This document shows, piece by piece, positions 11,957 to 52,108 of a DNA stretch of 64,000 nt. The position numbers were made by a program, and so were the translations under genes. The notes under the pieces were generated by a model. That model had not been told where the DNA came from. It searched no databases and was given only the letters and a program-made list of their open reading frames with translations. The first letter of the stretch is position 1; every line of letters starts with the position of its first letter. The stretch is from Planktothrix rubescens CCAP 1459/22 (GTDB lineage Bacteria; Cyanobacteriota; Cyanobacteriia; Cyanobacteriales; Microcoleaceae), in NCBI GenBank assembly GCA_904830895.1, contig LR882958.1:1854001-1918000 (forward strand). The letters are read 5' to 3'.

Positions 11957-12292
11957 ATGACTAAAACTACTCCTAAAACCTCTGAAATTTCCTCAAAAAC
12001 TGATTCAGTTAATTTATTCCGTTGTATTAGTAATGCAGGGATTTATGCCGCCGTTGCCTTCGGTTTGTATAATGTAACCCATGCTATTTCTGGAAAGTTT
12101 GCAGCCAAACCTATCCATTCTGAGAATTTTACCGTGATCCAAATGTCAGCAGCCGTTCGGACTCTGGTGGTTGGTGTATTGACGATGGGAACGGTTTTAT
12201 TTTCTTTCCTGGCTGTAGGATTAATTGGATTAGCATTATACGTTAGTATTCAAAGGTTAATTAAACCTAAGATTCCTTCCTCTGATGGTTGA
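11957..12292 (+). CDS. DUF3082-like small membrane protein
   Basis: 111 residues with two predicted membrane segments (about residues 27-43 and 70-97) and a disordered Ser/Thr/Lys-rich N-terminus. Composition and position directly after ispE fit the cyanobacterial DUF3082 family, though I assign this from memory of the family rather than a search. Function unknown. The 3-bp spacing after the ispE stop suggests translational coupling. Confidence 0.65.
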   Translation: MTKTTPKTSEISSKTDSVNLFRCISNAGIYAAVAFGLYNVTHAISGKFAAKPIHSENFTVIQMSAAVRTLVVGVLTMGTVLFSFLAVGLIGLALYVSIQRLIKPKIPSSDG

Positions 12293-12303
12293 AAACCGTA
12301 GTC

Positions 12304-12387
12304 AGGCGTTCACGCCTCTAATCTAAGCTAATCTAAGCCCTGAAGGGCTTACTACCGTAGTATATTTTAGGGAGCGAGGACGCTCCC
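12304..12387. repeat. Three consecutive short hairpins (dispersed palindromes)
   Basis: AGGCGTTCACGCCT (12304-12317), AAGCCCTGAAGGGCTT (12335-12350) and GGGAGCGAGGACGCTCCC (12370-12387) follow one another between the convergent DUF3082 and WD40 genes. ACTAC/GTAGT motifs lie between them. The middle hairpin shares its core with the repeat at 806-896. They could fold into a multi-stem transcript end, but they look more like clustered insertions of small palindromic elements. Confidence 0.75.
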
Positions 12388-12429
12388 ACTACAGATCGGT
12401 TGAAATTAATTTGGGAAAGAAAATAGAGC

Positions 12430-15400
12430 CTATTGACAAACTTTCAAACGTTCTCGCTCATCTGGACGATTAACAAAGTAACTTGATAACCAATTACAAC
12501 CTCTTTCCAGTAGTTCATCTAAGTTTTGAGGAACAGACCAAACTACAACTTTATTATCTTCTCCAACAATCGCCACATATCGCCAGTCAGGACTAAAACG
12601 TGCAACAATTCCATAGTCAGGATGAGGGTTAACTTCCCATCGAGCTAATTTCCGACCGAGTAAATCATAAATTTCTACTACCCCATTTTTAGTAATTATA
12701 GCGATCCTTTGTCCATCTGGACTAAAGCTAAAATATCCTAATTGGCTGACTTTCAAAACAGTTAAAATTTTACTCGACAAGTCCCAAATATATACTATTC
12801 TGTCTTGATCTATTCCAGCAATATACTGACCATCGGGGCTTAAGATTGCATTAGAAATAGAATCATAATTTTTATCCTTTAATTTTAATAAATTTTTACC
12901 CGAACTATTATTAATCAATATTGTCCCATCTTTTTCTGTTTCAACTTTAAGGTTTTCGCCAATTTGAGGGTTACTTTGAGCCGGACTTTGATTATTAGTG
13001 TTCTCAGTGTTTAATAATTGGCCTGACAAGCTCCAAGTCTGAACATTTTTATTTGTTAAGACATCAATCGTTTTACCATCCTGATTAAAATTGACACTAT
13101 CAATGTAATCTGACTGAGTTTTGATTGAATTTAAAATCTTACCTGAAAATGTCCAAACTTGAACAATTCCATCTTTTTCAATTGTAGCAATATACTTATT
13201 GTCAGGACTAAAAATAACATCTCTAACCCTATTTTTGCTATTTTTCAGTTGAGTAGCCTGACGACCTGATACATCCCAAAGGCGAATTAGACCATCTTCT
13301 CCATAAGTAATTAAACTTTTACTGTCAGGACTAAAATAAATAGAAAGTACAGTTCCTCGATGTCCTGTCAGTTCAAGCTGTTCTTGACCTGATAAATCCC
13401 AAAGACGAATTTTACCATCAGCCCCACCTGTTGCAATGAGTTGACCATTAGGGCTAAACCTCACTGATGCAATACTTCCTCTGTGTCCTTTAAGTTCTGC
13501 TATTTGTTCACCTGAAAAATTCCAAACTCTAGCAATGCCATCTGTTCCACCCGTGACTAACTGTTTACCAGTAGGACTAAAACTGACATCCAAAACACCA
13601 GATTTATGACCTTTAAGTTCTGCCAATAATTTTCCTGATATATTCCAAAGATAAGCTTTACTATCAAAGTCAATCGTTGCAACAAACTGACTATCGGAGC
13701 TAAAAATAACTCGGTAGCCATTGAGTTTTGCTATTGGCTGACCTGACCAATTCCAAATAGTAGGCTTAGAACTATTTTCTGAAGTAACAATATATTGGTG
13801 GTTAGGAGTTGTATCAACAATTGCTGAATCTATTGTAGGAGGAAGCCAATTCAATTTTGCTAAAACTTTACCAGAAAAATTTAAAATATAAGCTTCGCTT
13901 TTTTCAACTGGATGAATCAGAAGATGTTGGCTATCATGACTAAAATCGATATTCGCAAAATCACTTTTATCGTACTTAAATTCTGTTAATTTTTTTCCAA
14001 ATTTATTCCAGACACGAACAAAACCATCTTTTCCGGCTGTTGCAATATATTGACTATTAGGACTAAAAATAATCGAATTTCCAGACCCCTTATGTGCTTT
14101 AAATTTCAGTAAATATTTACCAGAAAAGTTCCAAACATGAACAAACCCATCTTCTCCTACTGCGGCAATATATTGACCATCGGGGCTAAAAACAACTTGA
14201 TTAACCACACCTTGATGTCCTTTCAACTGAGTCAAACTTTGACCTAGCCAGTTCCAGACATCTAAATCTATACTTCCCTTTGATGATGCTGTTACAAAAT
14301 ATTGATAATCAGGACTAAAGCTTAATGAGTTTAATGCTCCAAATGTATTGCGTTCATAAATGTTATCTAAAATTTGTTGTAAGCTAAAAATAGGGGTAAC
14401 TGTAGGATAATTTTTCAAAGAATGAGTATTAGACGTTATAGGCTTGAAGTCTTTACCTGTTGTTCCATTCTCCCTGAAGATGGAAGCTTGCTTAAAGGTG
14501 GGGTTTAAATTTTTAAAATCTTTACCTATTGTTACTGCCTGCATTAAGGCTTCTATAGGTTCATTACCTGAGTAAAACTGTTGTAAAGCATTTATTCCTT
14601 CATTTTCTAGTCTATTATTTTCTCCCTGTAGTATTAGCTTAAAACCAGTAAAAAATCCTATAATTATAGACAAACTAATAAGCAAAAACAATTGTTCTTT
14701 TTGTTTATTTAATTCTTCACTTTGTTTCATAAATTTTTGAGAAATTATCATAAATTTTTTAAGATATACATATAATTCTTCATTAATTTTATTCAAATTT
14801 TTATTCTGTTTATTTAAGGAATAAACTACACTTTTATTAATAAAATCATAATCTTCATAACTAATCAGTTTTTGTTCTGACCACTTTACAGCTTTCTCCA
14901 AATATTGACCTTTCAAAAGTTTAGAATTATCTCTTTTTCCTGAATTTAACCAAGCTTGTAGTTGTTTATGAGAGTAAGGCCGTGATTGATTTAATTGTTT
15001 ATCTACCCATTCTTGATCAAAGGTAAGTTGATATATTAAATTAAACGGTTGTAAAAAATTATGATCTCTAATAACTAACCCTGATAACCTTAATTTTGAT
15101 TGTTCAAAACTACCATCTACTTCAATCTTGCCCTGTTTTAGAATGTGCTGATACAATCCTAATAAACGATGAGAGATTTTTTCATTATAAAGGATGCGAT
15201 CGCGGATTGTTTTTAAATGTTCAGGCTCATCCTGAGATTCCCAATTATTGATAATATAGGTTCGCACAATCTGCTCAATATTAGGGGTTCTATTTTCTGC
15301 TTTTTCAACAACTAGCTGGCATAACTTTTGAGTCAGAAAAGGCTGTCCGCCTGTCCAATTTAAAATTTCTTTTAATATTTCTTCAGGATTATCAACAACT

Positions 15401-16065
15401 TCCCTCAACCCTTGAGTTAAAGATGATTGTGCTTCAGAAAATTCAAAACCTTTTAACTCAATGGCTTGACCAATATTAAAAGGAGTCCGTGTTTTGTCTT
15501 GAATCAAATCAGAAGGCGTTGCGACTCCTAATAAACAAAACGTTAAACGTTTATATTCTTGATTCTCTGAACGCTGATTGTAAAATGAACGAATTACGGC
15601 GAAGAATTCATCTTTAAACTTTATTTTTATAATACTGTCGATTTCATCTAAAAAAATAATTATTTTTTCTTGTAACTGAGATAAAATAATAGTTTCAATA
15701 AACTGGTTAAATTTTTGCAACGGTGATAAATAACTACATTCTTGCAACCATAATTCAAAGTTGACTTTTTGATCTAAGATTAACCCTTGAAGCAGCATAA
15801 ACATTAGATCTCCATACCATTCTTCCGCACTGCCATAACTACTAATTTTTGTCATATCAACAGATACACATTTGAATCCTTCTTGCTTTAATTTCTTTGC
15901 CATTTTAACTCGTAAACTAGATTTACCCATTTGTCGAGAGTTCAAAACATAGCAAAACTCACCATTTTTTAAAGCATTATAAAGTTCATCATCTGCTTTG
16001 CGCTTTACATAGGTAGGGTTTTGATGGTCTAAACTTCCCCCAATACTGTATCGATATCTAGCCAT
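12430..16065 (-). CDS. AAA-like/STAND ATPase with transmembrane segment and C-terminal WD40 repeats
   Basis: 1211 residues. Residues 1-340 are the cyanobacterial AAA-like domain: Walker A variant SRQMGKSS (43-50), Walker B IIIFLDEIDS (D140, E141), and TGGQPFLTQKL, typical of STAND-type switches. A helical region follows, then a membrane segment about 459-480, then 14 or 15 WD40-like blades from about 575 to 1190 (FSPDGQYIA...VWNFSGK), enough for two seven-bladed propellers. AAGGAG at 16074-16079 is a good ribosome site. The start is 28 bp after the stop of the HTH-ATPase gene, so the two form an operon. Likely a membrane-anchored sensor; ligand unknown. Confidence 0.85.
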   Translation of the reverse strand: MARYRYSIGGSLDHQNPTYVKRKADDELYNALKNGEFCYVLNSRQMGKSSLRVKMAKKLKQEGFKCVSVDMTKISSYGSAEEWYGDLMFMLLQGLILDQKVNFELWLQECSYLSPLQKFNQFIETIILSQLQEKIIIFLDEIDSIIKIKFKDEFFAVIRSFYNQRSENQEYKRLTFCLLGVATPSDLIQDKTRTPFNIGQAIELKGFEFSEAQSSLTQGLREVVDNPEEILKEILNWTGGQPFLTQKLCQLVVEKAENRTPNIEQIVRTYIINNWESQDEPEHLKTIRDRILYNEKISHRLLGLYQHILKQGKIEVDGSFEQSKLRLSGLVIRDHNFLQPFNLIYQLTFDQEWVDKQLNQSRPYSHKQLQAWLNSGKRDNSKLLKGQYLEKAVKWSEQKLISYEDYDFINKSVVYSLNKQNKNLNKINEELYVYLKKFMIISQKFMKQSEELNKQKEQLFLLISLSIIIGFFTGFKLILQGENNRLENEGINALQQFYSGNEPIEALMQAVTIGKDFKNLNPTFKQASIFRENGTTGKDFKPITSNTHSLKNYPTVTPIFSLQQILDNIYERNTFGALNSLSFSPDYQYFVTASSKGSIDLDVWNWLGQSLTQLKGHQGVVNQVVFSPDGQYIAAVGEDGFVHVWNFSGKYLLKFKAHKGSGNSIIFSPNSQYIATAGKDGFVRVWNKFGKKLTEFKYDKSDFANIDFSHDSQHLLIHPVEKSEAYILNFSGKVLAKLNWLPPTIDSAIVDTTPNHQYIVTSENSSKPTIWNWSGQPIAKLNGYRVIFSSDSQFVATIDFDSKAYLWNISGKLLAELKGHKSGVLDVSFSPTGKQLVTGGTDGIARVWNFSGEQIAELKGHRGSIASVRFSPNGQLIATGGADGKIRLWDLSGQEQLELTGHRGTVLSIYFSPDSKSLITYGEDGLIRLWDVSGRQATQLKNSKNRVRDVIFSPDNKYIATIEKDGIVQVWTFSGKILNSIKTQSDYIDSVNFNQDGKTIDVLTNKNVQTWSLSGQLLNTENTNNQSPAQSNPQIGENLKVETEKDGTILINNSSGKNLLKLKDKNYDSISNAILSPDGQYIAGIDQDRIVYIWDLSSKILTVLKVSQLGYFSFSPDGQRIAIITKNGVVEIYDLLGRKLARWEVNPHPDYGIVARFSPDWRYVAIVGEDNKVVVWSVPQNLDELLERGCNWLSSYFVNRPDERERLKVCQ

Positions 16066-16093
16066 ATAATTAACTCCTTGATATGACCATTAA

Positions 16094-17398
16094 TTAAAGA
16101 TATTGTTGAAAATATTTATAGTATAAATCGCAACGAGCTTGAGCTAAATAACCTTGTTTTTTAATTAATCCCATACTGTGTAGTTTATAAGATTGCATAG
16201 GTTCAATTTGTATAGGTTGATCTGCATTAATAACTTGCTTAAAAGCTTCACAAAGTTCTGGTTTTTGCTGCAAAGCCTCTAAATGACGTCGCAGGTGATC
16301 ATCATAAATTCCTGCTGGAGTTGCTGCATCTTCTAACAACTGATCGAATGATAAACTGTGACGAGCAAGATGATAAAATGCTAATCGTGCTAAATAAGGA
16401 TGCCCACCTATCATGTCGTATAATAAATTAATCTCCGGTGAATCTACCTTAATGTGTAATTGATGACGTTTTGCTAAATCTATCATTTGTTCTAAGGTAA
16501 ATTCGCTTAAATTAACTGGAAATCCTATATTAAACGGTGACTGATTAATGTCTAAACGTCCATAGTCTTCTGTAGAATGGACAACTAATAATCTTAGATT
16601 TTCAAAAATTTCTAAATCTTTGGCATCTTCATACCAACTTCGTAATAATGAAAAGAAATCTTGATAGATTTCAGGATAATCAAAAATTCGATCAATTTCA
16701 TCAAATCCTAAAACTAATGGTATGTCAATTTCTTCTAATAAAAACTTTAAATAATTACTGCAACTAACTTTACTACCTCGATTCCAATATTGATCAAGCT
16801 GCTCTGTAATTTGTAAGTGATCGCTCATATCAACACACAAAAAACGTAGAAAATGATCTAAACTCTTAAATGCCTCACCATCCATCTTTTGCAAGTTAAA
16901 ACGCACTGTTCGATAACCCTGCTGTTCTGCATGGTGAAGAATTCGGTTTAATAAAGATGTTTTACCTATTTGTTTTGGTGCTTTAATCCGAATTAATGCT
17001 CCTGGTTGTTCAATTTCTTCATAACAGTCGGATTCAATAGGTAAACGCTCAATATAAAAAGGGGAGTCTAAGGGAACAACCCCTTCTGGATTGTCTAGTT
17101 TCATCTTTGGTAAAGTTCCGCCAAGATACTTAGCAATGATTTCAGGATTTACATATTCAGGCTTATACTTAGCAAATAATTCCACCAAATCATTCCGAAG
17201 ACGTTCATGTTCATTCTTTTCGTTTTTAATCCCAAATATATTGCAGGCTTTTGCAATGTGCTTTCGGATGGTAGATGAATGAACATCTCGTGTTTCCGCA
17301 GTCGTTGTATCTGAATCTCCTGCAAAAAAAGGCTTTAGTGCCTGTTTGTTCTTAGGAGTCAGTTTTTCGTATGCCGTATCGAATTCTTCTTTATTCAT
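16094..17398 (-). CDS. AAA-like ATPase with N-terminal HTH (VMAP-type)
   Basis: 434 residues. Residues about 5-60 form a LuxR/NarL-like helix-turn-helix (LTPKNKQALKPFFAG...VHSSTIRKHIAKACNIFGIKN), the version found at the N-terminus of vWA-MoxR-associated and related cyanobacterial signalling proteins. Residues 110-400 are the same AAA-like domain as the downstream protein: Walker A APKQIGKTS (140-148), Walker B LVLGFDEIDR (D233, E234), and GGHPYLARLA. The C-terminal 40 residues look like a winged helix. It heads a two-gene operon with the WD40 ATPase and is divergent from a PLD-domain gene. Role in regulation or conflict is inferred only. Confidence 0.8.
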   Translation of the reverse strand: MNKEEFDTAYEKLTPKNKQALKPFFAGDSDTTTAETRDVHSSTIRKHIAKACNIFGIKNEKNEHERLRNDLVELFAKYKPEYVNPEIIAKYLGGTLPKMKLDNPEGVVPLDSPFYIERLPIESDCYEEIEQPGALIRIKAPKQIGKTSLLNRILHHAEQQGYRTVRFNLQKMDGEAFKSLDHFLRFLCVDMSDHLQITEQLDQYWNRGSKVSCSNYLKFLLEEIDIPLVLGFDEIDRIFDYPEIYQDFFSLLRSWYEDAKDLEIFENLRLLVVHSTEDYGRLDINQSPFNIGFPVNLSEFTLEQMIDLAKRHQLHIKVDSPEINLLYDMIGGHPYLARLAFYHLARHSLSFDQLLEDAATPAGIYDDHLRRHLEALQQKPELCEAFKQVINADQPIQIEPMQSYKLHSMGLIKKQGYLAQARCDLYYKYFQQYL

Positions 17399-17576
17399 AT
17401 TCTAAGTTTAGCAAAAATCCTATAAGTCTTAGTTTTGGGAATTTTTTTTCACAAAACCATTATATACAGAGTTGCTTGTGAAAGTATGGGAAGTTTTAGA
17501 CTCATTTGCAAGTTTGAAAAAAATATATTTTATGCTGAAAACGTAATCAGAAATTTCTTATTAGGAGAAATTAACT
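17399..17576. promoter_or_regulatory. Divergent control region of the ATPase operon and PLD gene
   Basis: A 178-bp AT-rich gap between divergent genes. It holds a T8 run and, before the PLD gene, AGGAGA at 17563-17568, eight bases from the ATG. No clear -35/-10 pair could be chosen. Being the only non-coding DNA shared by both directions, it is where the HTH protein would most simply bind. Confidence 0.4.
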
Positions 17577-18392
17577 ATGTCGGCTTATAACTCCCTCAAT
17601 AATCAAAATTTTATTCAACGCCAAGCCCATTCTCTTGATCTGCGTAGCTTGTCACAACTTGACACCCGTTTAGCTCACTGTCAAAACTGCTATGCAATTC
17701 ACCCCAGCTTACAACGAAACCAACAAAAACAAATTTTCTGCCCAACTTGCGGAATTCAATATATTGTCAATAGTCCTGAACCTGCAAAAGTAATTCAATC
17801 TTATTTCCGAGATAAAAATCTCTACTTTAATGATAATGACCTTGATATTGAGCAATATAAAAAATTAGGAGCGATCGCACAACGCCTTAATACTGACCCC
17901 AATTATCCCCTCATGGCAGGTTTATTAAAAGCAATGAATCTAGCTAAAAAGTTTATCCATTTTATCAGTCTGGGGATTAGTCATCAATTTCTAGGCGCAT
18001 TAAAAACAGTATCCCAAGGGATTCCAGTTAAAGGTATTGTTTCCTTAACCTCTAGTCAAACCTATCAATTACCCGAATTATCAAACTACACCCATGAAAG
18101 CCCAAACCTAGAGATTAAACCGATGTGTGAAACTATTTTTAATTGGGATAGAATTCCTCATCAAAAACTAATTGTTATCGATGGATTAATAGCCTTTAAA
18201 GGCAGTGCAAATCTGACCCTTACCGCTTGGCGAAAGGCAGAACGCAATTTAGAAGAAATCGAATTGATCACCAATCTTGAAGAAGTAATTTATCTCCATA
18301 ATCGCTATTTTTCACCCGTTTGGGCTGATTTTAGTTCGGATGGAAAAGCCATTATTATTGATCACGATAACCTTGAGGATATGGCAGCTTAA
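17577..18392 (+). CDS. Zinc-ribbon / phospholipase-D-fold protein (putative nuclease)
   Basis: 271 residues. Residues 35-58 form a zinc ribbon (C35-x2-C38, C55-x2-C58). A single PLD domain occupies about 110-245 with a complete HKD motif (H195, K197, D202) followed by FKGSANLT. Proteins with one HKD motif act as dimers; family members are nucleases or phosphodiesterases. The zinc ribbon suggests nucleic-acid or protein binding. It has a strong ribosome site and is divergent from the paired ATPases. A short tail (DHDNLEDMAA) ends the protein. Nuclease activity is inferred, not seen. Confidence 0.75.
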   Translation: MSAYNSLNNQNFIQRQAHSLDLRSLSQLDTRLAHCQNCYAIHPSLQRNQQKQIFCPTCGIQYIVNSPEPAKVIQSYFRDKNLYFNDNDLDIEQYKKLGAIAQRLNTDPNYPLMAGLLKAMNLAKKFIHFISLGISHQFLGALKTVSQGIPVKGIVSLTSSQTYQLPELSNYTHESPNLEIKPMCETIFNWDRIPHQKLIVIDGLIAFKGSANLTLTAWRKAERNLEEIELITNLEEVIYLHNRYFSPVWADFSSDGKAIIIDHDNLEDMAA

Positions 18393-18425
18393 AAAACATC
18401 AATTCCTGTAGGGGTAACGCTCACA

Positions 18426-18470
18426 TAGATGGAATCCCCGCCCGTTTTACGGCGGGGCGGCGGATGTCAA
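18426..18470 (+). repeat. Hairpin repeat, copy A (IS200/IS605-end-like)
   Basis: From TAGATGGAATCCCCGCCCG, through a CCCCGCC/GGCGGGG stem with CGTTTTAC loop, to GATGTCAA. A second copy lies inverted at 24403-24443. The pattern resembles the hairpin ends of IS200/IS605 elements. Its last bases contain the stop codon (18467-18469) of the HD phosphodiesterase gene on the other strand. Confidence 0.7.
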
Positions 18471-20944
18471 CGACAACCTAGCACCGCTTTTGGATAAGCA
18501 ATTCGTTTGTGATTAACTTGTTCCCAAACCCTGACAAAGATTTCGGCGATTTTTGCCATTTCTGCCCTGGTTAAACCCGAATCAATTAATTGATTATCTT
18601 GCCATCGAGCCTTTAATATTTTATTAACCATATTTAATGCTTCTTCGTGGGTGGCATCCTTAAGCGATCGCAATGCCGCCTCACAGGAATCTGCTAACAT
18701 CACAATCCCCGTTTCTTTAGATTGGGGAATCGGCCCATCATAGCGAAAATCATCTTCTCGGACTTCCAATTCAGGATTTTCTTTAGCAAGTTGTTGGGCG
18801 TGATAATAGAAATAAGCAATCTGCATACTTCCTTGATGTTCAGGAATAAATGATTGAATCGCTTTTGGTAAACGATATTTTTTCGCCATTGCTAACCCCT
18901 CGCCAACGTGCTTTTTAATAATTTTGGCACTTTCCCATGGGTCATCAATTGTATCATGTTTATTCGTTCCCCCCATTTGATTTTCAATAAATCCTAAAGG
19001 GTCGTGCATTTTTCCAATATCATGATATAAAGTTCCAGTTCTGACTAATTCCACATTACAGCCCAATTCTTGAGCGGCGGCTTCGGCTAAAGTTGCCACA
19101 AACATCGTATGTTGAAATGTTCCGGGTGCTAGGGTTGCTAATTTTTTTAATAACGGTCGATTGGGATTTGCTAACTCAGCTAATCGAATCGGAGTAATTA
19201 AATCAAATAGATGTTCTAAATAGGGACTTAACCCCAAGGCGACAATACTCCAAGCCACTCCTTCTAATACTTGTAATCCTACAACCTTGAGCATAACATA
19301 CCAAATTGATCCGGCTGTTGCACTCGCCATTAAATTAAAAATTAAGTAAACAGCACCTTGAGCAATTCCCACCTCTAATCCTAGTAATGCTAATTCTTCT
19401 CGACTCCGAGATTGCCCTGCCAAAAGACTCCCAACTAATCCTCCCACGGCACTGGCCAGTAAATGAAAATTATCAATTTCCATGCCAATTGGTAATAAAA
19501 TTGAAAGTAGACCCACAACCGTTACTCCCACAGCCGAGCCATAAAAACTTCCTACTAATAACCCCACCGCAGGTAAATTAATCAGAGGTAATTTTAACAA
19601 AATAATAATCGGTGTACTTAGGGTTAGCAGTAATAATAAAAGCCGATCTCGACGACGTAAACCTCGATGAAATTTCCATTCAACCAATAAAACAATTCCG
19701 ACTCCTAGACTAACTAACCCTACTAACTTAATTAATCCTTTTGAATTAATTCCCCGTTCACTCAAACCAAAATAATCCAGTAAGACAAAATCCCGTTGAG
19801 TAATTTTTTGTCCTCTGTTAACAATAACTTCTCCCATGCTAATATTAACTAACACAGGTTCAATTTTTTGTGCGACTAACTCGGCTCGATGACGGGTTGC
19901 TTCTGGATCTTTAACTAAATTTGCTTTTAAAACTTGATTTAATAAATTAGTTGCAAATAATTGAGTTTCTAAAGGAATTGTATATTTAATATGAACTTCA
20001 ATAGCTTTTTTCAGGATTTCATCGGGTACACCAGGAGCAATCCCCTGGGCTAACATCTCTTGAGTAATTTGAGCAATTCCTGTTTGGGTTTGCAACCAAA
20101 TTTGATCAGACCAGCCAAAGATGGACTCACTATAAAAGACTGTTTGATCAACAGAGGATTTCTGGGAAAAGGAATTCAATGATGCGGCATATCGCCAACG
20201 GGCTTGGGTCACATCGGATAATAATTGTGAAAATTCAACCTCAGTGGTTCGCTGACGGTAAGCCTGTAATTGTCTGAGGGTATGTTGGCGAATTTCGACT
20301 AAGTTGGCTTCTTGCCAATCGGTAAATTTGGTCGGATTTTTTTTACTTGGGGTTTTTGATGGGGTAGTTGAGGGAATTTGTACACTCACCTGTTCAACTT
20401 GGGCAATTAAATCTTGCCATTCTCGTTCTGGAACCCCGCGCAAGTAACGCTGAACTTCCGTCGATAAAATTCCCGTATTCACAAAAGGAAAAGGTTCGGC
20501 GATATTGCGGATAGATGCCCCCTGGGCTAATACCTTTTGAATGGTTTGCTCGATATCTTGATTGACGGCATTGTCAATCACTAAAACCGGAATCGCACCA
20601 ATTTCAGCCGCTTTGCGCTTTTCATCGGTGGTTTTCAGGTCAGGAACATTGGCATCCGAGGGGGCGTTAATGGTTTCCTGGGCAATACGACCGACATCTA
20701 ATTTGGGTTGGTTGTAAAATCGAACCCCGATAACGCTAGTTAAGGAAACTACACTTACCAAGAAAAAGATTGGACTCGTCAGAGAACTCAATTTTTTTTT
20801 GACTTTTCGGGGTTTAGGATTGGATAACAATGAAGGGTTGGAACCGGATAGTTTTGTGGGTGAAGGCTGTATAGGAGGCGAGGCGGAATGGGCGCGGCTA
20901 CAAAGCCGTTCAATCTGTTGCGTCAGAGTAGGTCGCGTATTCAT
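18467..20944 (-). CDS. PgpH-like 7TM receptor with HD phosphodiesterase domain
   Basis: 825 residues. A first membrane segment near residue 50-65 is followed by an extracytoplasmic 7TMR-HDED domain (about 70-390, VGRIAQETINAPSDANVPD), a block of seven membrane helices (about 400-590), and a cytoplasmic HD domain with HTMFVATLAEAAA and YHDIGKMHDP (HD near 640). This is the architecture of PgpH-type enzymes that hydrolyse cyclic di-AMP. All metal ligands appear present (H, HD, H in FIPEHQG, D in MLADSCEAA). The final residues end inside the repeat at 18426-18470, which supplies the stop codon. Confidence 0.9.
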   Translation of the reverse strand: MNTRPTLTQQIERLCSRAHSASPPIQPSPTKLSGSNPSLLSNPKPRKVKKKLSSLTSPIFFLVSVVSLTSVIGVRFYNQPKLDVGRIAQETINAPSDANVPDLKTTDEKRKAAEIGAIPVLVIDNAVNQDIEQTIQKVLAQGASIRNIAEPFPFVNTGILSTEVQRYLRGVPEREWQDLIAQVEQVSVQIPSTTPSKTPSKKNPTKFTDWQEANLVEIRQHTLRQLQAYRQRTTEVEFSQLLSDVTQARWRYAASLNSFSQKSSVDQTVFYSESIFGWSDQIWLQTQTGIAQITQEMLAQGIAPGVPDEILKKAIEVHIKYTIPLETQLFATNLLNQVLKANLVKDPEATRHRAELVAQKIEPVLVNISMGEVIVNRGQKITQRDFVLLDYFGLSERGINSKGLIKLVGLVSLGVGIVLLVEWKFHRGLRRRDRLLLLLLTLSTPIIILLKLPLINLPAVGLLVGSFYGSAVGVTVVGLLSILLPIGMEIDNFHLLASAVGGLVGSLLAGQSRSREELALLGLEVGIAQGAVYLIFNLMASATAGSIWYVMLKVVGLQVLEGVAWSIVALGLSPYLEHLFDLITPIRLAELANPNRPLLKKLATLAPGTFQHTMFVATLAEAAAQELGCNVELVRTGTLYHDIGKMHDPLGFIENQMGGTNKHDTIDDPWESAKIIKKHVGEGLAMAKKYRLPKAIQSFIPEHQGSMQIAYFYYHAQQLAKENPELEVREDDFRYDGPIPQSKETGIVMLADSCEAALRSLKDATHEEALNMVNKILKARWQDNQLIDSGLTRAEMAKIAEIFVRVWEQVNHKRIAYPKAVLGCR

Positions 20945-42805: not shown

Positions 42806-45800
42806 ATGAGCACTCCCAAAACCCTAACTGTTCCTTACTCACGACACTTTCTGGAATGGCTGCACCAACACCAAGTCAGCGTCGCCCTGACTACCTACCA
42901 AACAAACCGCCTTTGTTTGATCGGAGTCCAACCTAACGGCCAAATTTCCACCCCCGTTTGGGAATTTGAGCGACCGATGGGACTTTATGTGACATCAGAA
43001 CGCTTTTACCTCGCCACCCGCTATCAAATTTGGCGGTTTGAAAATATCCTCGAAAACGGGGAACTTTTACAGGATAAATATGATCGCGTCTACGTTCCTC
43101 GCGTTGCCTACACCACCGGAGATGTAGACGTACATGACCTTGTAGTTGATCCTCAAGGTAACATCATCTTTGCTAACACCGAATATAGCTGTTTAGCGAC
43201 GCTCCATCCTCAACACAGCTTTACTCCTGTATGGCAACCGAATTTTATCAGCAAACTCGCCCCGGAAGATCGCTGTCACCTTAACGGGTTAGCCGCCCTT
43301 AACGGTATTCCCCGCTATGTAACGGCGGTTAGTCATTCGGATGTAGCATCCGGTTGGCGACATCGACGCAGTGATGGGGGAGTGGTGATTGATATTCAAA
43401 CCAACGATATCATCGCTAGGGGTTTATCCATGCCCCACTCTCCCCGATGGTATCAAGGGAAATTGTGGTTACTCAACTCAGGAACAGGAGATTTTGGATA
43501 CATCGAAAACGGGGAATTTGTTGCGGTTACATTTTGTCCGGGGTATGGACGGGGGTTAGCCTTTGTCGGAGATTTTGCCGTTGTGGGTTTATCTAAACCC
43601 AGAGATTATCATTTTTCCGGTTTATTACTGGGAGAAAAGCTGCAACAAAAACAAGCCGAAGCCCGTTGTGGCATCCTAATTATTGACATAAAAACCGGAA
43701 ATATTGTCGAATGGCTAGACATGGATACCGAAGCCACAGAACTTTATGATGTGGCTATTTTTCCCCAAGTTCAATGTCCGATGTCCTTGGGTTTTAAAAG
43801 TGGGAATATTGCTAAATTAGTTACTATTGGGGGCTTTAAAAAAGTCAACAATAATTATAGTAATTATACTTCAAAAACCACCAATAAAATCAGATATGAT
43901 TTACCCTTATTTTTGAGATTATTTCGCTCAGTTAACTGGCGAGAAGGGGAAAGATTAAGTGAAGCGATCGCCTGGATTTATATTCAGTTAAATAAACCGA
44001 TAGAATTAGGACAAAATCAGCTTAATTTTTCCCATAAAAAAACTTCTAATAAAGAACAAGCCATTGCTAATTTTAATCAAGGTCAAGACTGGAAAAAGCA
44101 AGGAAAATTTGAACAAGCGATCGCTTGTTTTCAAAAAGCCATAGCAGCCGACCCAAATTATATTCCTGCCCATAATAATTTAGGAACCTTACTGCAACAG
44201 CAAAATCGCTTATCTGAAGCCATAACTTGTTATCAAAATGCTCTAAAAATTAACCCAAATTCTGCGTTAACCTTAACAAACTTGGGGTCAATCTACCTAA
44301 TTGAAGGTCAATTAAATCAAGCTGAGGAGTTATTAAAACGCGCCTTGGAATTAAACCCTGAGCTTGTTCCAGCTTTATATAATTTAGGTTTATTGTATAA
44401 ACAACAAGCCAAATTAGACGAAGCCATTCAGCTATTCCAAACCGCAGCTAAACACCAACGGAACTACGCGGATGCCTATTTTGAATTAGGGCAAATTTGG
44501 GAATTTCAGAGTCAATTTACCCTAGCGAAACTAGCCTATGAACGAGTGCAAAAACTCAACCCTAATGCTCAACATTTATTATCCCATATTGGTTTTGTGA
44601 AACTCAATCTTTGCGACTGGGAAAACTATGATAGTTTCATAGAACAATTAATTGATTCTACGACCCAATATATTCAGGAAGAAAACGGCGGTGTCACCCT
44701 CGCACCCTTTCAGTTAAACGCCCTTCCTATTCCTCCAGAATTATCTCTAGCAGTTGCTCAAAAACACGCCACCGCCATTGAGAAATCTGTTAACTCGAAA
44801 AAACCTCAATTCATCTATTCTCAAAAAAACGATAAATTGCGGGTGGGTTATGTTTCCCCAGATTTATGCAGTCACGCCGTCGGACGCTTAATTTCCCAAC
44901 TCTTTGAAGCTCACAACCGAGACCAGTTTGAAATCTTTGGCTACAACCTATTAAATGTCAACGATGAAGTCACAGAAATGATTAAAAATGGCTGTGATCA
45001 ATTTCGAGATATTTACCAACTTTCTGCCGTCGATGCGGCTCGCCAAATTAATGCTGATGGCATTGATATTTTAATAGATTTAGCGGGTTATACAGGTTAC
45101 AGTAAAACGGAAATATTTGCTTATCAACCTGCACCTGTACAGGCGAGTTTTCTGGGATATCCCAATACAATGGGAGCGAATTTTATCCCCTACTTGCTAA
45201 CGGATGAATGGGTTGTACCAGCAGATTTAGCTAAAAATTATAGCGAGTCAATCATCTATTTACCCCATCAGTTTATCTGTTCACCGATGGAGATTTCCAA
45301 CAAACAAGTTAGTCGGGCTGAATTCGGGTTGCCAGAAGATAGTTTTGTCTTTGTTTGCTGCAACCGACACTTTAAAATTACGCCAGATTTATTTGCCGTT
45401 TGGATGGGGATATTACAGCAAGTTGAAGGCAGTGTTTTGTGGTTATCTTTGGCAGTAGAAGAGACCATGCAAAACCTCCGTCGCCGTGCTGGGGAAATGG
45501 GGGTAGCACCCGAAAGACTAATTTTTGCCCCCAAAATTCCCCATCCCGAATATTTAGCCCGCTTGCAGTTAGCAGATTTAGCCTTAGATACATGGATATA
45601 TAGCGGGGGTTCCACCACTGTAGCAGCGTTGTGGGCGGGTGTACCCGTACTGACAAAACCTGGTTTGACCAACGCTTCCCGCATGGGGGCGAGTATTTGT
45701 GCCAGTGGCGGACTCCCAGAAATGATTGCTCACAGTGGGGAGGAGTACCAACAAAAAGCGATTGACTGGGCCAGCCATCCCCAGGAGTTGCAACAGTTGC

Positions 45801-45895
45801 GTCAACGGTTAAAGGCACGAGATGCGCCGTTATTTAACGTATCAGGGTTTGTCAGCCACTTAGAATCGGCATTTCGACAAATGGGAAACCGTTAA
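42806..45895 (+). CDS. TIGR03032 - TPR - SPINDLY-type O-GlcNAc transferase fusion
   Basis: 1029 residues. Residues about 1-340 are a TIGR03032 domain, a beta-propeller-like domain of unknown function (VDVHDLVVDPQGNIIFANTE, RYVTAVSHSDVASGWR). Residues about 420-600 hold five TPRs (AIACFQKAIAADPNYIPAHN and others). Residues 680-1029 are a GT41 catalytic domain: RVGYVSPDLCSHAVGRLI (catalytic His), DILIDLAGYTGYSKTEIFAY, FLGYPNTMGA, CCNRHFKITPDLF (UDP-binding Lys), and DTWIYSGGSTTVAALWAGVPVLT. Expected to transfer GlcNAc to Ser/Thr in the cytoplasm. The gene ends 72 bp before the giant Ser/Thr-rich protein, the likely substrate. Confidence 0.88.
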   Translation: MSTPKTLTVPYSRHFLEWLHQHQVSVALTTYQTNRLCLIGVQPNGQISTPVWEFERPMGLYVTSERFYLATRYQIWRFENILENGELLQDKYDRVYVPRVAYTTGDVDVHDLVVDPQGNIIFANTEYSCLATLHPQHSFTPVWQPNFISKLAPEDRCHLNGLAALNGIPRYVTAVSHSDVASGWRHRRSDGGVVIDIQTNDIIARGLSMPHSPRWYQGKLWLLNSGTGDFGYIENGEFVAVTFCPGYGRGLAFVGDFAVVGLSKPRDYHFSGLLLGEKLQQKQAEARCGILIIDIKTGNIVEWLDMDTEATELYDVAIFPQVQCPMSLGFKSGNIAKLVTIGGFKKVNNNYSNYTSKTTNKIRYDLPLFLRLFRSVNWREGERLSEAIAWIYIQLNKPIELGQNQLNFSHKKTSNKEQAIANFNQGQDWKKQGKFEQAIACFQKAIAADPNYIPAHNNLGTLLQQQNRLSEAITCYQNALKINPNSALTLTNLGSIYLIEGQLNQAEELLKRALELNPELVPALYNLGLLYKQQAKLDEAIQLFQTAAKHQRNYADAYFELGQIWEFQSQFTLAKLAYERVQKLNPNAQHLLSHIGFVKLNLCDWENYDSFIEQLIDSTTQYIQEENGGVTLAPFQLNALPIPPELSLAVAQKHATAIEKSVNSKKPQFIYSQKNDKLRVGYVSPDLCSHAVGRLISQLFEAHNRDQFEIFGYNLLNVNDEVTEMIKNGCDQFRDIYQLSAVDAARQINADGIDILIDLAGYTGYSKTEIFAYQPAPVQASFLGYPNTMGANFIPYLLTDEWVVPADLAKNYSESIIYLPHQFICSPMEISNKQVSRAEFGLPEDSFVFVCCNRHFKITPDLFAVWMGILQQVEGSVLWLSLAVEETMQNLRRRAGEMGVAPERLIFAPKIPHPEYLARLQLADLALDTWIYSGGSTTVAALWAGVPVLTKPGLTNASRMGASICASGGLPEMIAHSGEEYQQKAIDWASHPQELQQLRQRLKARDAPLFNVSGFVSHLESAFRQMGNR

Positions 45896-45967
45896 CCCCC
45901 AACCATCAGAAACATCTTGATACCCATTAGGGATAAACCGACTACCCAATTAAAGGAAATTAAGAAA

Positions 45968-48900
45968 ATGACTTCTAGTTTTAACTTTACCGAAAACACG
46001 AACATCTCCCTCACCGGTGTTTTCAGAAGTTCCGTCACCACAGCCGACTTTGACAAAGATGGGGACACCGATATCCTGCTCACGGGCTTGGATAGTTCTA
46101 GTAACCCCATCAGCAAAATCTATAGCAACAACGGCAGTGGCGGTTTTAGCGAAAACACGAACATCTCCCTAACTCGTGTTTCCTTTAGTTCCGTCACCAC
46201 AGCCGACTTTGACAATGATGGGGACACCGATATCCTGCTCACGGGCCGGGATAGTTCTAATAACCGCATCAGCAAAATCTATAGCAACAACGGCAGTGGC
46301 GGTTTTAGCGAAAACACCAACGTCTCCCTCACCGGTGTTGCCGATAGTTCCGTCACCACAGCCGACTTTGACAAAGATGGGGACACCGATATCCTGCTCA
46401 CGGGCCGGGATAGTTCTAATAACCGCATCAGCAAAATCTATAGCAACAACGGCAGTGGCGGTTTTAGCGAAAACACCAACGTCTCCCTAACTGGTGTTGC
46501 CTATAGTTCCGTCACCACAGCCGACTTTGACAAAGATGGGGACACCGATATCCTGCTCACGGGCCGGGATGGTTCTAGTTCTAATAACCGCATCAGCAAA
46601 ATCTATAGCAACAACGGCAGTGGCGGTTTTAGCGAAAACACCAACGTCTCCCTCACCGGTGTTTCCAGTAGTTCCGTCACCACCGCCGACTTTGATAAAG
46701 ATGGGGACACCGATATCCTGCTCACGGGCCAGGATAGTTCTAATAACCGCATCAGCAAAATCTATAGCAACAACGGCAGTGGCGGTTTTAGCGAAAACAC
46801 CAACGTCTCCCTCACTGGTGTTGCCTTTAGTTCCGTCACCACAGCCGACTTTGACTCTGATGGGGACACCGATATCCTGCTCACGGGCCAGGATAGTTCT
46901 AATAACCGCATCAGCGAAATCTATAGCAACAACGGCAGTGGCGGTTTTAGCGAAAACACCAACGTCTCCCTCACCGGTGTTCGCTATAGTTCCGTCACCA
47001 CAGCCGACTTTGACAATGATGGGCACACCGACATCCTGCTCACGGGCCAGGATAGTTCTAGTAACAGCATCAGCAAAATCTATAGCAACACCCTCAACCC
47101 CCCCACCTTCAGCAGTTTTGCTGGCCCGGTTGACACTACCAACGAAGATACAGAAGTCGAACTCACCTTTGCTGACTTCGCTGCCCAAGGAAATGAAGCG
47201 GATAATGGGGGGACGGTGGATGCCTTTGTTGTGAAAGCCGTCAGTAGTGGTACGTTAAGAATTGGGAGCGATGCCACCATCGCCACAGCTTGGGTTGCCG
47301 GGAGTAATGATACGATAGATGCCACGAAAAGAGCTTATTGGACACCGGATGCCAACGTTAACGGCACGGTCAATGCGGTTCAAGTGGTGGCTAAAGATAA
47401 CGATCGTTTGCAGTCTCCTACCCCAGTCACTGCCCAAGTCACGGTCACGGCCGTTAACGATGCACCCGTATTAGCTAATACCAACTTCACCTATACCCTC
47501 ACCACCATTAACGAAGATGATAGCACCTCTATTGGGGATGTTATCAAAGATATAATTCCATCTGGAAGTATTAAAGAAAACACCAACATCTCCCTCACCG
47601 GTGTTCGCTATAGTTCCGTCACCACAGCCGACTTTGACAATGATGGGGACACCGATATCCTGCTCACGGGCTCCCCTAGTTCTGGCCGCATCAGCAAAAT
47701 CTATAGCAACAACGGCAGTGGCGGTTTTAGCGAAAACACGAACATCTCCCTCACCGGTGTTGCCAGAAGTTCCGTCACCACAGCCGACTTTGACTCTGAT
47801 GGGGACACCGACATCCTGCTCACGGGCCAGGATAGTTCTGGTAAACCCATCAGCAAAATCTATAGCAACAACGGCAGTGGCGGTTTTAGCGAAAACACCA
47901 ACATCTCCCTAACTGGTGTTGCCTATAGTTCCGTCACCACAGCCGACTTTGACAAAGATGGGGACACCGACATCCTGCTCACGGGCTACGATAGTTCAGG
48001 AAACACCATCAGCAAAATCTATAGCAACAACGGCAGTGGCGGTTTTAGCGAAAACACCAACGTCTCCCTCACCGGTGTTGGCTTTAGTTCCGTGACCACC
48101 GCCGACTTTGACAAAGATGGGGACACCGACATCCTGCTCACGGGCTCCTCTAGTTCTGGTAAACCCATCAGCAAAATCTATAGCAACAACGGCAGTGGCG
48201 GTTTTAGCGAAAACACGAACATCTCCCTCACCGGTGTTGCCTTGAGTTCCGTCACCACAGCCGACTTTGACAATGATGGGGACACCGACATCCTGCTCAC
48301 GGGCTTCGATAGTTCATTTAACCCCATCAGCAAAATCTATAGCAACAACGGCAGTGGCGGTTTTAGCGAAAACACCAACGTCTCCCTCACCGGTGTTTCC
48401 AGTAGTTCGGTCACCACAGCCGACTTTGACTCTGATGGGGACACCGATATCCTGCTCACGGGCCGGGATAGTTCTAATAACCGCATCAGCAAAATCTATA
48501 GCAACAACGGCAGTGGCGGTTTTAGCGAAAACACGAACGTCTCCCTCACCGGTGTTTCCTTTAGTTCCGTCACCACAGCCGACTTTGACAAAGATGGGGA
48601 CACCGACATCCTGCTCACGGGCTCCTCTAGTTCTGGCCGCATCAGCAAAATCTATAACAATCTTATCCCCATATCCGATGTAGACACCACCACCATCACC
48701 GAAGCCATTGCAATTACAGCCGCCGACAATAACGGCACTTGGCAATATTCCACCAACAACGGCACAACCTGGACAAACTTCCCCTCCGTCAGCGACAGTA
48801 ACGCCCTATTATTAGATGCAGGGAATAAAGTTCGTTTCCAACCCAACACCAACTACAACGGGACTATTACCAATGCCCTCACCTTCCGGGCTTGGGATAA

Positions 48901-51900
48901 GTCCACAGGTACAGCCGGAAGTACAGCCGACACCAGCACTAACGGCGGGACAACAGCCTTTAGCAGTAACACCGCCACCGCCTCCATTGTGGTAACGGCC
49001 GTTAACGATGCACCTACCGGCACGGACAAAACCCTAACCTTTAACGAAGACAGTAACTATACCTTTGCTGCCACGGACTTCGGTTTTAGTGATGTAGACA
49101 CCGGAAACACCCTAGCTTCGATAAAAATCACTCAACTGCCCACCGCCGGGACATTAAAACTCAACAGCACTGCTGTCACAGCTAACCAAGTGATCACTGC
49201 TGCGAATATTCCTAACCTACAATTTACCCCAGTTGCCAATGCCAACGGTAGCGGTTATGCCAACTTCAAGTTCACCGTTAATGACGGCACTCTTGATAGT
49301 GTGGCAGCTAATACTATTACTATTGATGTCACGGCCGTTAACGATGCACCCACAGGTAATGTTAGTATTACAGGGACAGCAACACAAAACCAAACCTTAA
49401 CCGCAACCAATACCTTAGCAGACGCAGATGGTTTAGGAACATTAAATTATCAATGGCAAGAGTCATCTGATAATGGAGTTACCTGGACAGATATTAGTGG
49501 AGCAACTAATAATACTTTTGCCTTATCTCAAGCACAAGTCGGGAAAAAAGTACAGGTAAAAGTTAGTTATACTGACCTATTAGGGACAGTAGAAACCGTT
49601 AATAGTAGTCCGACTTCTCTTGTTGCTAATATTAACGACTTACCCACAGGTAATGTTAGTATTACAGGGACAGCAACACAAAACCAAACCTTAACCGCAA
49701 CCAATACCTTAGCAGACGCAGATGGTTTAGGAACATTAAATTATCAATGGCAAGAGTCATCTGATAATGGAGTTACCTGGACAGATATTAGTGGAGCAAC
49801 TAATAATACTTTTGCCTTATCTCAAGCACAAGTCGGGAAAAAAGTACAGGTAAAAGTTAGTTATACCGACCTATTAGGGACAGCAGAAACCGTTAATAGT
49901 AGTCCGACTTCTCTTGTTGCTAATATTAACGACTTACCCACAGGTAATGTTAGTATTACAGGGACAGCAACACAAAACCAAACCTTAACCGCCACAAATA
50001 CCTTAGCAGATGTTGATGGTTTAGGAACCTTAAATTATCAATGGCAAGAGTCATCTGATAATGGAGTTACCTGGACAGATATTAGTGGAGCAACTAATAA
50101 TACTTTTGCCTTATCTCAAACCCAAGTTGGGAAAAAAGTACAGGTAAAAGTTAGTTATACTGACCTATTAGGGACAGTAGAAACTGTTAATAGTAGTCCG
50201 ACTTCTGTGGTTACTAATATTAACGATGCTCCCACTGCGACTCCTATCGGCAACCAAACCGTTAACGAAGATAGCAGTTTCAGTCTCAATATTACTAATA
50301 ATTTCAGTGATATTGATGCAGGAGATAGTTTAACCTATACCGCCACCTTAGCCGATGGTACAACCTTACCCAGTTGGTTAACATTTAATAGCACAACCGG
50401 AGCCTTTACCGGAACACCGACTAACAGTGATGTTGATGCGTTGACTATTAATGTTACTGCTACCGATAAAAGTGGGGCAAGTATTAGTGATAGTTTCCTG
50501 TTGAGCATTATACCCACGCCAACACCGGAACCGACACCGGAACCGACACCAACACCGACACCAACACCGACACCAACACCGACACCGGAGCCAACACCGG
50601 AGCCAACACCGGAGCCAACACCGGAACCGACACCGACACCGGAACCGACACCGACACCAACACCGACACCAACACCGACACCAACACCGACACCAACACC
50701 GACACCAACACCGACACCAACACCAACACCAACACCAACACCAACACCGACACCAACACCGGAACCGACACCGGAGCCAACACCGGAACCGACACCGGAG
50801 CCAACACCGACACCAACACCGACACCAACACCGACACCAACACCGACACCAACACCGACACCGGAGCCAACACCGGAGCCAACACCGGAACCGACACCAA
50901 CACCGACACCAACACCGACACCAACACCGGAACCGACACCGGAGCCAACACCGGAGCCAACACCGACACCAACACCGACACCAACACCGGAACCGACACC
51001 AACACCGGAACCGACACCGGAGCCAACACCGACACCAACACCAACACCGACACCGGAGCCAACACCAACACCAACACCGGAGCCAACACCGGAACCCACA
51101 CCCACGTCAACACCGGAACCAACACCCAACTCCACTCGTGATTTTTATGAGCCTAGCAATTTCATTAAAACCCTTGATTTTCCTGCTTTAAAAACTAACA
51201 CAAACTCCCCATCCCAGGTTTCCAGTAATGGCAATGAGGAGATCTCAGGTACAGCCGAATCTGATCAAATCTTTGGTAAAGACGGTGACAATAACATTGA
51301 AACCGGAGATGGCAACGACGAAATTAACGGCAATCAAGGGAACGACTATATCAATGCGGGCAAAGGCAAAGATCTAGTTTTCGGTGGCAAAGGCAACGAC
51401 CAAATCGACGGCGGCGATGATGATGATGACTTGTTTGGCAACCTTGGTAACGATACCATTGCTGGAAATACTGGCAATGACTCGATTAATGGGAATCAAG
51501 GAGATGACCTGATTGATGGTGGTGATGGCAAAGATGAACTGTTCGGAGGTCAGAATAATGACTTTGTTAAAGGTGGTAATCAAGATGATATCATCTTCGG
51601 CAACCAAGGAACAGACCGACTCGAAGGAAACGACGGTGACGATACCCTCTTTGGGAACCAAGATAGTGATACAATCTCTGGTAACTCCGGTCAAGATCTA
51701 ATCTATGGTGGTGCTGACAACGACCTGCTCGACGGCAACGACGGTGACGATACCCTTGGTGGCGGAGGAGGTAACGATACCCTTGGTGGCGGAGGAGGTA
51801 ACGATCTTCTCACCGGAGGCCAAGGCAACGATATCTTAGTGGGGGCTGAAGGTGCTGATACTCTGACCGGAGGCGAAGGTAGTGACCGCTTTGTTCTGGT

Positions 51901-52108
51901 TTCGGGATTTGGCCCTGATACGATTACCGACTTTACTTCTGGGGTGGACATGATTGTCCTTGATGGCGGTCTCACCTTTGAACAACTAACTCTCACCCTG
52001 GTCAATGGTTCCACTCAAATTCAGGTCAATAATCAAATTCTCGCCACCCTGAATAACGTTAACCCTAACTTATTGACCTCTGATAACTTTACAACTTCTA
52101 TCTTCTAA
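45968..52108 (+). CDS. Giant secreted repeat protein: twin FG-GAP propellers, cadherin-like domains, PT/PE spacer and RTX repeats
   Basis: 2046 residues from ATG 45968 (AAGGAAA ribosome site; the frame opens earlier at TTG 45917, which lacks one). Order: seven FG-GAP/VCBS repeats of 53 residues, a cadherin-like domain, seven more FG-GAP repeats, two or three cadherin/VCBS-like domains ([12 protein letters not shown]), three identical 98-residue Ig-like repeats, a He_PIG-like domain ([18 protein letters not shown]), about 200 residues of PEPT/PTPT, and nonapeptide RTX repeats (GGxGxD) with a C-terminal secretion-type end ([16 protein letters not shown]). No N-terminal signal peptide, consistent with type I secretion. 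Likely calcium-dependent surface adhesin. No transporter gene is nearby. Confidence 0.88.
45992..47096 (+). repeat. First block of seven FG-GAP repeats (about 159 bp each)
   Basis: Each unit encodes a calcium loop DFDxDGDTD and the strand [16 protein letters not shown]. Copies are nearly identical in DNA except at two codons after LTGV, at one codon in the calcium loop, and around LLTGxDSSxxx. Seven repeats would close one integrin-alpha-like seven-bladed beta-propeller. The last unit is truncated ([12 protein letters not shown]). Confidence 0.85.
47576..48663 (+). repeat. Second block of seven FG-GAP repeats
   Basis: Same 159-bp unit as the block at 45992-47096, separated from it by a cadherin-like domain (about 47100-47570). 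Again exactly seven copies with two hypervariable codons after LTGV; the last ends [10 protein letters not shown]. Near-identity at DNA level shows recent expansion or gene conversion. Confidence 0.85.
49355..50236 (+). repeat. Three tandem 294-bp (98-residue) Ig-like repeats
   Basis: Copies begin at 49355, 49649 and 49943. Each encodes [20 protein letters not shown]...[17 protein letters not shown]...[13 protein letters not shown]. Copies one and two differ at a handful of bases. A fourth, diverged copy lies outside the gene at 42296-42690. Confidence 0.9.
50513..51127 (+). repeat. Low-complexity Pro-Thr-Glu spacer
   Basis: About 615 bp of imperfect hexanucleotides (CCAACA, CCGACA, CCGGAA, CCGGAG) encoding PT and PE dipeptides. 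Always in frame multiples of six, so changes in copy number would lengthen or shorten a stiff stalk without frameshift. The reverse strand gives long spurious frames. Confidence 0.9.
51229..51900 (+). repeat. RTX nonapeptide (hemolysin-type calcium-binding) repeats
   Basis: About 25 GGxGxDxLx-like nonapeptides ([46 protein letters not shown]). They bind calcium after export and are typical of type I secretion substrates. The following about 70 residues form the usual C-terminal signal region. Confidence 0.9.

Follow-up and report, generated by a model that had tools for sequence, protein, structure and literature searches.

Do two adjacent ATPase genes and the divergent gene beside them, which encodes a zinc-ribbon protein of the phospholipase D (PLD) fold, belong together, and if so, how might the sensor be connected to the enzyme? 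The question is raised by positions 12430 to 18392 of a 64,000-nucleotide stretch of the Planktothrix rubescens CCAP 1459/22 genome (contig LR882958.1, positions 1,854,001 to 1,918,000), which was analysed as a whole and is referred to here as the window. A first-pass annotation, made from the DNA letters alone, had regarded the trio as a candidate signalling or conflict module. Comparison with relatives revealed that the three genes form one mobile unit, a single insertion with clean ends. The constant unit across relatives is a divergent sensor gene with a helix-turn-helix (HTH) domain together with the zinc-ribbon PLD gene, and not the exact trio.

A mobile unit and its divergent partners

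In a relative from the same genus (G003) the genes that flank the unit are convergent, with 38 bp between their stop codons. Identity of the window DNA with G003 stops at 12295 and restarts at 18471; thus, the three genes are the entire content of an insertion of about 6.2 kb (12296..18470) that is missing from the empty site of this relative. The junctions were inspected by eye, with no search run, and showed neither a target duplication nor a terminal inverted repeat that would have been noticed in this way. Short inverted repeats, similar in G204 and G007 on inspection, lie at 12296-12400, in the interval that separates the WD40 gene from the edge of the insertion, and resemble an interspersed repeat or a terminator. 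The PLD family had no match in phages and none in viral contigs, and a phage or viral origin was consequently rejected.

The zinc-ribbon PLD family is rare. Counting the window genome (G000) wherever it was part of the searched set, 7/59 relatives gave any match at E<=0.001. A five-sequence PLD profile matched 22/388 genomes of the order, 11 of them strongly and at full length. In the phylum 25/386 genomes gave a match, and only G000, G008 and G292 were both strong and full-length. At E<=1e-15 the family was present in 8/61 genomes of the window's taxonomic family, 1/20 of G174's and 1/217 of G292's. Plasmids yielded one member, from Nostoc, and one 27% match in Aliarcobacter with different neighbours. 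On inspection, eight weak matches (L016, L017, L109, L112, L114-L117) had no HTH-sensor partner among the open reading frames (ORFs) within about 1.5 kb on each side, and none was seen among the ORFs of G286.

The full-length members compared (n = 11) were G000, G204 of the same species, G007 (Planktothrix paucivesiculata PCC 9631, record L092), G008, G001, G010 (Lyngbya aestuarii), G350 (L094), G243 (Microcoleus, L093), G174, G292 (plasmid of Nostoc sp. TCL26-01, L126) and G106 (Argonema, L095). In all 11 the ORF next to the PLD gene runs divergently from it and opens a sensor gene or operon. An intact pair of an HTH-AAA_35 and an AAA_35-WD40 gene adjoins PLD in five (G000, G204, G007, G001, G106), and a fused, internally deleted remnant of this pair in one (G008). 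The remaining five loci carry other sensors, namely an XRE-type HTH with a NACHT-like ATPase followed by a WD40 gene (G010), NACHT with NCH2 (G174), a GerE-type HTH with TPR (G292), and an XRE gene with a PIN gene (G243; G350 is placed here because its second ORF is similar). The conserved neighbourhood proposed in the first-pass annotation is therefore real in 5/11 loci plus the remnant; as a constant arrangement the exact trio does not hold, since other HTH-sensor genes adjoin PLD elsewhere.

The N-terminal HTH of the PLD partner is supported by profiles in nine of the 11 members (G000, G204, G007, G001, G008, G292, G010, G243 and G350). As a control, the 54 N-termini of 27 other divergent pairs, from the window and 14 further loci, were compared with Pfam at E<=0.01. 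They matched 76 families, and no HTH family was among the 25 listed, which include every family with at least two members. The remaining 51 match one member each, so that the base rate of HTH domains is low, though it may be above zero. Judged by this Pfam criterion, 7/11 PLD partners count as HTH proteins, four being missed, including that of the window. A chance neighbourhood was rejected on the divergent geometry of all 11 members and on the control pairs.

The three proteins and their shared promoter

All three reading frames are open at exactly the limits that the first-pass annotation had given, and its description of their products was borne out. Gene 1 (16094..17398, minus strand, 434 residues) and gene 2 (12430..16065, minus strand, 1211 residues), said to share an AAA-like domain, both match AAA_35 above the Pfam cut-off of 27 bits, with 459 and 106 bits, respectively. 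Walker A, Walker B and GxP motifs are the signature of signal transduction ATPases with numerous domains (STAND). All three are present in both window ATPases, as GKT, DE and GGHP in gene 1 (AAA_35 at residues 104-432; 16103..17089, minus strand) and as GKS, DE and GGQP in gene 2 (residues 10-349; 15019..16038, minus strand). They recur in 9/9 gene 2 sequences, with Walker B reading DE in each. Gene 1 retains Walker A and GxP in 10/10 sequences, and its Walker B is DE in four (window, L095, L165, L172), DN in three (G204, G007, G001) and unmatched by the pattern in three, which hints at unequal partners. Among solved structures gene 1 has a weak relative only (2fna, E 0.004).

Gene 2 carries the membrane segment and sensor that had been noted, with a hydrophobic stretch predicted to span the membrane at residues 461-479 (14629..14685, minus strand; Kyte-Doolittle 2.26 over 19 residues) and a WD40 repeat region of 238 bits in Pfam (12511..14337, minus strand, limits approximate and partly set by eye). 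The HTH at the N-terminus of gene 1 (about residues 1-75; 17174..17398, minus strand) is LuxR/GerE-like. Its own Pfam HTH matches are below threshold; a profile built from the relatives G007, G001, G008, G042 and G049 picks it up with E=4e-17, and with 1e-17 in a repeat run, in which an HTH-TPR protein of Nostoc (0.04) and an unrelated protein (0.2) came next. A Pfam HTH cut-off is exceeded by every relative in this profile, that of Sigma70_r4_2 in G007, G001, G008 and G042 and that of GerE in G001, G042 and G049.

The divergent PLD gene (17577..18392, plus strand) encodes a 271-residue protein that matches PLDc_2 with 36 bits (cut-off 27). It contains a complete HKD motif, H195-x-K197-x4-D202-x6-G-S-x-N212 (18159..18212, plus strand), and a zinc ribbon, C35-x2-C38 ... 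C55-x2-C58 (17679..17750, plus strand). The four cysteines and H195, K197, D202 and N212 are invariant across the 11 members, and zinc-ribbon families of Pfam match below their cut-offs only. Among solved structures the PLD profile is closest to the nuclease NucT (PDB, E 5e-6).

By the ORF limits, gene 1 and the PLD gene are separated by a divergent promoter region of their own (17399..17576). It contains the operator candidate TTTCACAA-N21-TTGTGAAA at 17447..17483, the only match to CACAA-N21..24-TTGTG in the 64-kb window. A CACAA/TTGTG inverted repeat is present in the divergent promoters of 6/6 loci with a LuxR-type HTH and of 0/5 others. The spacing is N21 in G000 and G204, N12 and N23 in G007, G001 and G008, and N12 and N24 in G292; neither CACAA-N12-TTGTG nor CACAA-N21..24-TTGTG was found in the promoters of G010, G174, G243, G350 and G106. 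The motif occurs in 0-0.2% of shuffles of the six LuxR-type regions and in 0-0.4% over all eleven. Because the Nostoc PLD is 46% identical to that of the window, the Nostoc motif is partly independent. For the HTH, judged from sequence, a DNA-binding output that acts on the shared promoter is the best reading. Inverted repeats of other kinds were observed in two of the other loci. In Microcoleus EPA2 (L093, 7839-7976) a 21-nt inverted repeat, 90% complementary, lies in the promoter between the XRE and PIN operon and the zinc-ribbon PLD gene. In Argonema (L095, 7434-7961) a long imperfect one with 38-nt arms, equalled in 0/200 shuffles, lies immediately 5' of the PLD gene, in the interval towards gene 1.

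Exchange of parts and sibling pairs

Genome G204 carries the module at the same site as the window, and DNA identity between the two was followed per 150 bp. It is 89-99% over 17000-18499, covering HTH, promoter and PLD, and 77-99% over 12350-14449, the WD40 part, and it falls to 28-74% over 14450-16999; in the edge bin 12200-12349, which consists in part of non-coding repeats, it is 73%. The replaced block (14450..17000, minus strand) takes in all of the gene 2 AAA_35 domain, the membrane linker and the gene 1 AAA_35 domain except its first ~30 residues. A swap of both ATPase domains as one block within a species supports a paired function of the two. In G007 and G001 the WD40 part was replaced and the ATPases were kept. 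Here gene 1 is 73-100% identical per 50-residue window and the first 350 residues of gene 2 are 92-100% identical, followed by 34-78% from ~350 to about 1050 and by 92% in the last full window. The window itself is close to G007 only in the PLD gene (17631-18424, 96% DNA identity) and in the left flank up to 12495, matching stretches elsewhere being at 69-73%. Taken together, these comparisons indicate that the unit is a mosaic of exchangeable parts. A WD40 stretch 91% identical to the window propeller was also observed at another site, without ATPase or PLD, in G002 (L080, 6096-7502). It adjoins a 159-residue ORF that also flanks the G001 module on the left, and it may be what is left of a copy that decayed at a second insertion site.

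The ATPase pair is not unique to this locus, an idea that was rejected because the pair is common and present in multiple copies. Gene 1 was matched in 57/59 genomes, including the window's own, and 18 of the 23 AAA_35 pairs found are not PLD loci. The AAA_35 domains of paired genes co-diverge (Mantel r 0.85 over 16 non-redundant of the 23 pairs, species relatedness not removed; 0/2000 permutations as high). Independent phylogenies of the two ATPases, which the first-pass annotation had named as an argument against its module, are not borne out by this co-divergence and by the joint exchange between the window and G204.

Two more operons of paired AAA_35 and AAA_35-WD40 genes were observed in the window genome (L165, 4590-10045, and L166, 3806-9057). 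In these sibling pairs gene 1 bears a TIR (E 9e-13) or a CHAT domain (E 5e-11), so that the HTH in the same place beside a divergent PLD gene resembles another choice of output. A role in conflict is suggested by these TIR and CHAT siblings, and such a role is probable for the window unit as well. A LuxR-type HTH-AAA_35 gene 44% identical to the window's gene 1 occurs in G049 (L172, 7751-13241). It directly follows two genes, one for a TniB-like ATPase and one whose product has TnsA-like and integrase-core domains, and thus lies inside or beside a Tn7-like transposon. Elsewhere in the window (42806-52108) adjacent genes encode a 1029-residue DUF4915/TPR/glycosyltransferase-41 protein and a 2063-residue FG-GAP/cadherin/RTX repeat protein; the two may make up a glycosylated surface protein pair.

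Proposed wiring of sensor and effector

We tentatively read the locus as a mobile, STAND-type two-ATPase module whose DNA-binding output acts on the divergent PLD effector, a reading that is plausible and stops short of probable. The membrane-anchored AAA_35-WD40 protein would sense a trigger through its propeller and change state jointly with the AAA_35 domain of gene 1. The LuxR-type HTH of gene 1 would sit on the candidate inverted-repeat operator in the shared promoter, and would then either raise PLD production or lift its repression. With its single HKD motif, the PLD enzyme presumably acts as a dimer, and it may damage nucleic acid of the invader or of the host.

Several observations weigh against this proposal. 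In G174 and G106 the HTH was recognised by eye only, with no Pfam HTH, and the Pfam control would likewise miss HTH domains of the kind present in G174, G106 and the window. Five of the 11 PLD members are from one genus, which leaves about six independent contexts. The more distant zinc-ribbon PLD of G109 (247 residues, weaker match) and the truncated G301 have no HTH-sensor partner. Both the pattern of the operator and the spacings within it were picked after inspection, and CACAA/TTGTG was not found in the loci of four gene 1 relatives without a known PLD (L171, L019, L172, L173). Taken as a bare inverted repeat, the best one is ordinary in most of the ten regions compared. Of 200 shuffles, 85 were as good for G000, 86 for G204, 98 for G292, 42 for G010, 17 for G001, 16 for G007, 15 for G174 and 9 for G008; for G243 and G106 the number was 0.

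In the bacterial NLR-like (nucleotide-binding leucine-rich repeat-like) systems known to us as described, the effector is mostly fused to the ATPase or recruited by it. As the main rival explanation, the HTH-bearing protein might recruit PLD directly. The HTH-like domain would then be an adaptor, and the activated ATPase assembly would recruit and activate PLD, through the zinc ribbon or on DNA, under loose transcriptional control. TIR and CHAT stand in cis on the gene 1 N-terminus in the same genome, which marks this end as the usual output position, and for effector-associated domain (EAD) systems it is proposed in PMC10907252 and PMC7159879 that adaptor domains bring in separate effectors by homotypic contacts. 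However, the HTH is recognisably of the LuxR/Sigma70_r4 type in G007, G001 and G008, and the CACAA/TTGTG motif tracks the LuxR type. In addition, the HTH varies between LuxR-type and XRE while PLD is constant, which is hard to reconcile with an HTH that touches PLD. We regard such an adaptor role as rather unlikely.

Two further explanations were weighed. Unrelated defence genes might merely be co-located by chance and recombine at a genomic hot-spot, as the common, multi-copy ATPase pair, the rarity of PLD and the varying genomic sites would permit; this is improbable in view of the identical divergent geometry in 11/11 full-length members, the insertion with clean ends and the lack of any HTH family with at least two members among the control pairs. 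It is more improbable still that PLD mobilises a small mobile element which carries the sensor operon as cargo. PLD is indeed the constant part, and the unit occupies different sites within one genus, but exchanges inside the unit end within genes, the junctions, as far as inspection goes, lack the duplication or repeats mentioned above, and we know of no transposase of the PLD family.

The proposed module has partial counterparts among known systems. MalT, a transcription activator, carries a C-terminal HTH and a TPR sensor on one chain. A STAND transcription regulator according to PMC10427625, it sets the precedent that a STAND protein can regulate transcription. The window unit likewise joins a STAND-type ATPase to a LuxR-type HTH and includes a repeat sensor; unlike in MalT, the HTH is N-terminal, the WD40 sensor is on a second, membrane-bound ATPase, and the presumed target is the divergent PLD gene instead of sugar genes. 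According to PMC13236601, LypABC is an immune-like system of two ATPases whose expression is repressed by an XRE protein. It shares with CARD-NLR systems and our unit two different ATPases, of which one bears an effector-type domain at its N-terminus and the other a repeat region, as well as a third protein. In the window unit, by contrast, an ATPase itself bears the DNA-binding domain, the ATPases are of the AAA_35 family and PLD is the third protein. No CARD or trypsin domain appeared in the Pfam results for gene 1 and PLD, or among the best 25 of 62 families for gene 2.

Conflict systems dependent on nucleoside triphosphates (NTP) are enriched in multicellular bacteria and combine NTPases with variable effector and sensor modules, as stated in the accessible text of PMC7159879, in which the words PLD, phospholipase D and Planktothrix were not found. 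The window unit resembles these systems (MoxR-vWA/VMAP, iSTAND, beta-propeller; same text) in this variability and differs from the ternary MoxR-vWA systems in that its three genes include no MoxR or vWA gene, the main Pfam domains being AAA_35, WD40 and PLD. By profile the PLD fold is shared with DrmC (20.5 bits), PbeA (21.8 bits; both PADLOC) and NucT (PDB). Unlike DISARM, the unit has a PLD protein with an N-terminal zinc ribbon and lacks the DISARM partner genes. DISARM was rejected, with 18.3 bits for DrmC against an NCBIfam cut-off of 133 and only three genes in the unit. Among PADLOC defence models gene 1 had no match at E<=1; gene 2 matched HEAT-ARM_XIII (3e-29, through its WD40 repeats) and, at E 0.056 only, PDC-S01, and the unit was not assigned to Avs or PADLOC systems. 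The accessible parts of PMC11090510 and PMC3710099 treat PLD in other settings, and that of PMC13174449 describes no AAA_35 pair with a divergent PLD. Nor did a literature search, with most subscription papers outside it, return a description of this arrangement.

Each component is of a known kind, be it AAA_35/WD40 proteins, HTH-STAND regulators or PLD nucleases; what is new is their proposed wiring and the exchange of cassettes. The locus could, with less confidence than the module itself, represent an undescribed NLR-like class, in which interchangeable HTH-STAND, WD40 or TPR receptors converge, by way of a shared divergent promoter, on one conserved zinc-ribbon PLD executioner with a transcriptional, resistosome-type output, and in which the operator with its HTH, the ATPase pair and the propeller recombine as separate cassettes. 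If true, this would allow rapid respecification of sensing while the killer is left unchanged. The exchanged block of both ATPase domains marks where specificity and signalling may reside. Within one genome, the same paired-ATPase chassis is combined with TIR, with CHAT or with a DNA-binding domain beside PLD, which makes it a natural comparison of effector wiring.

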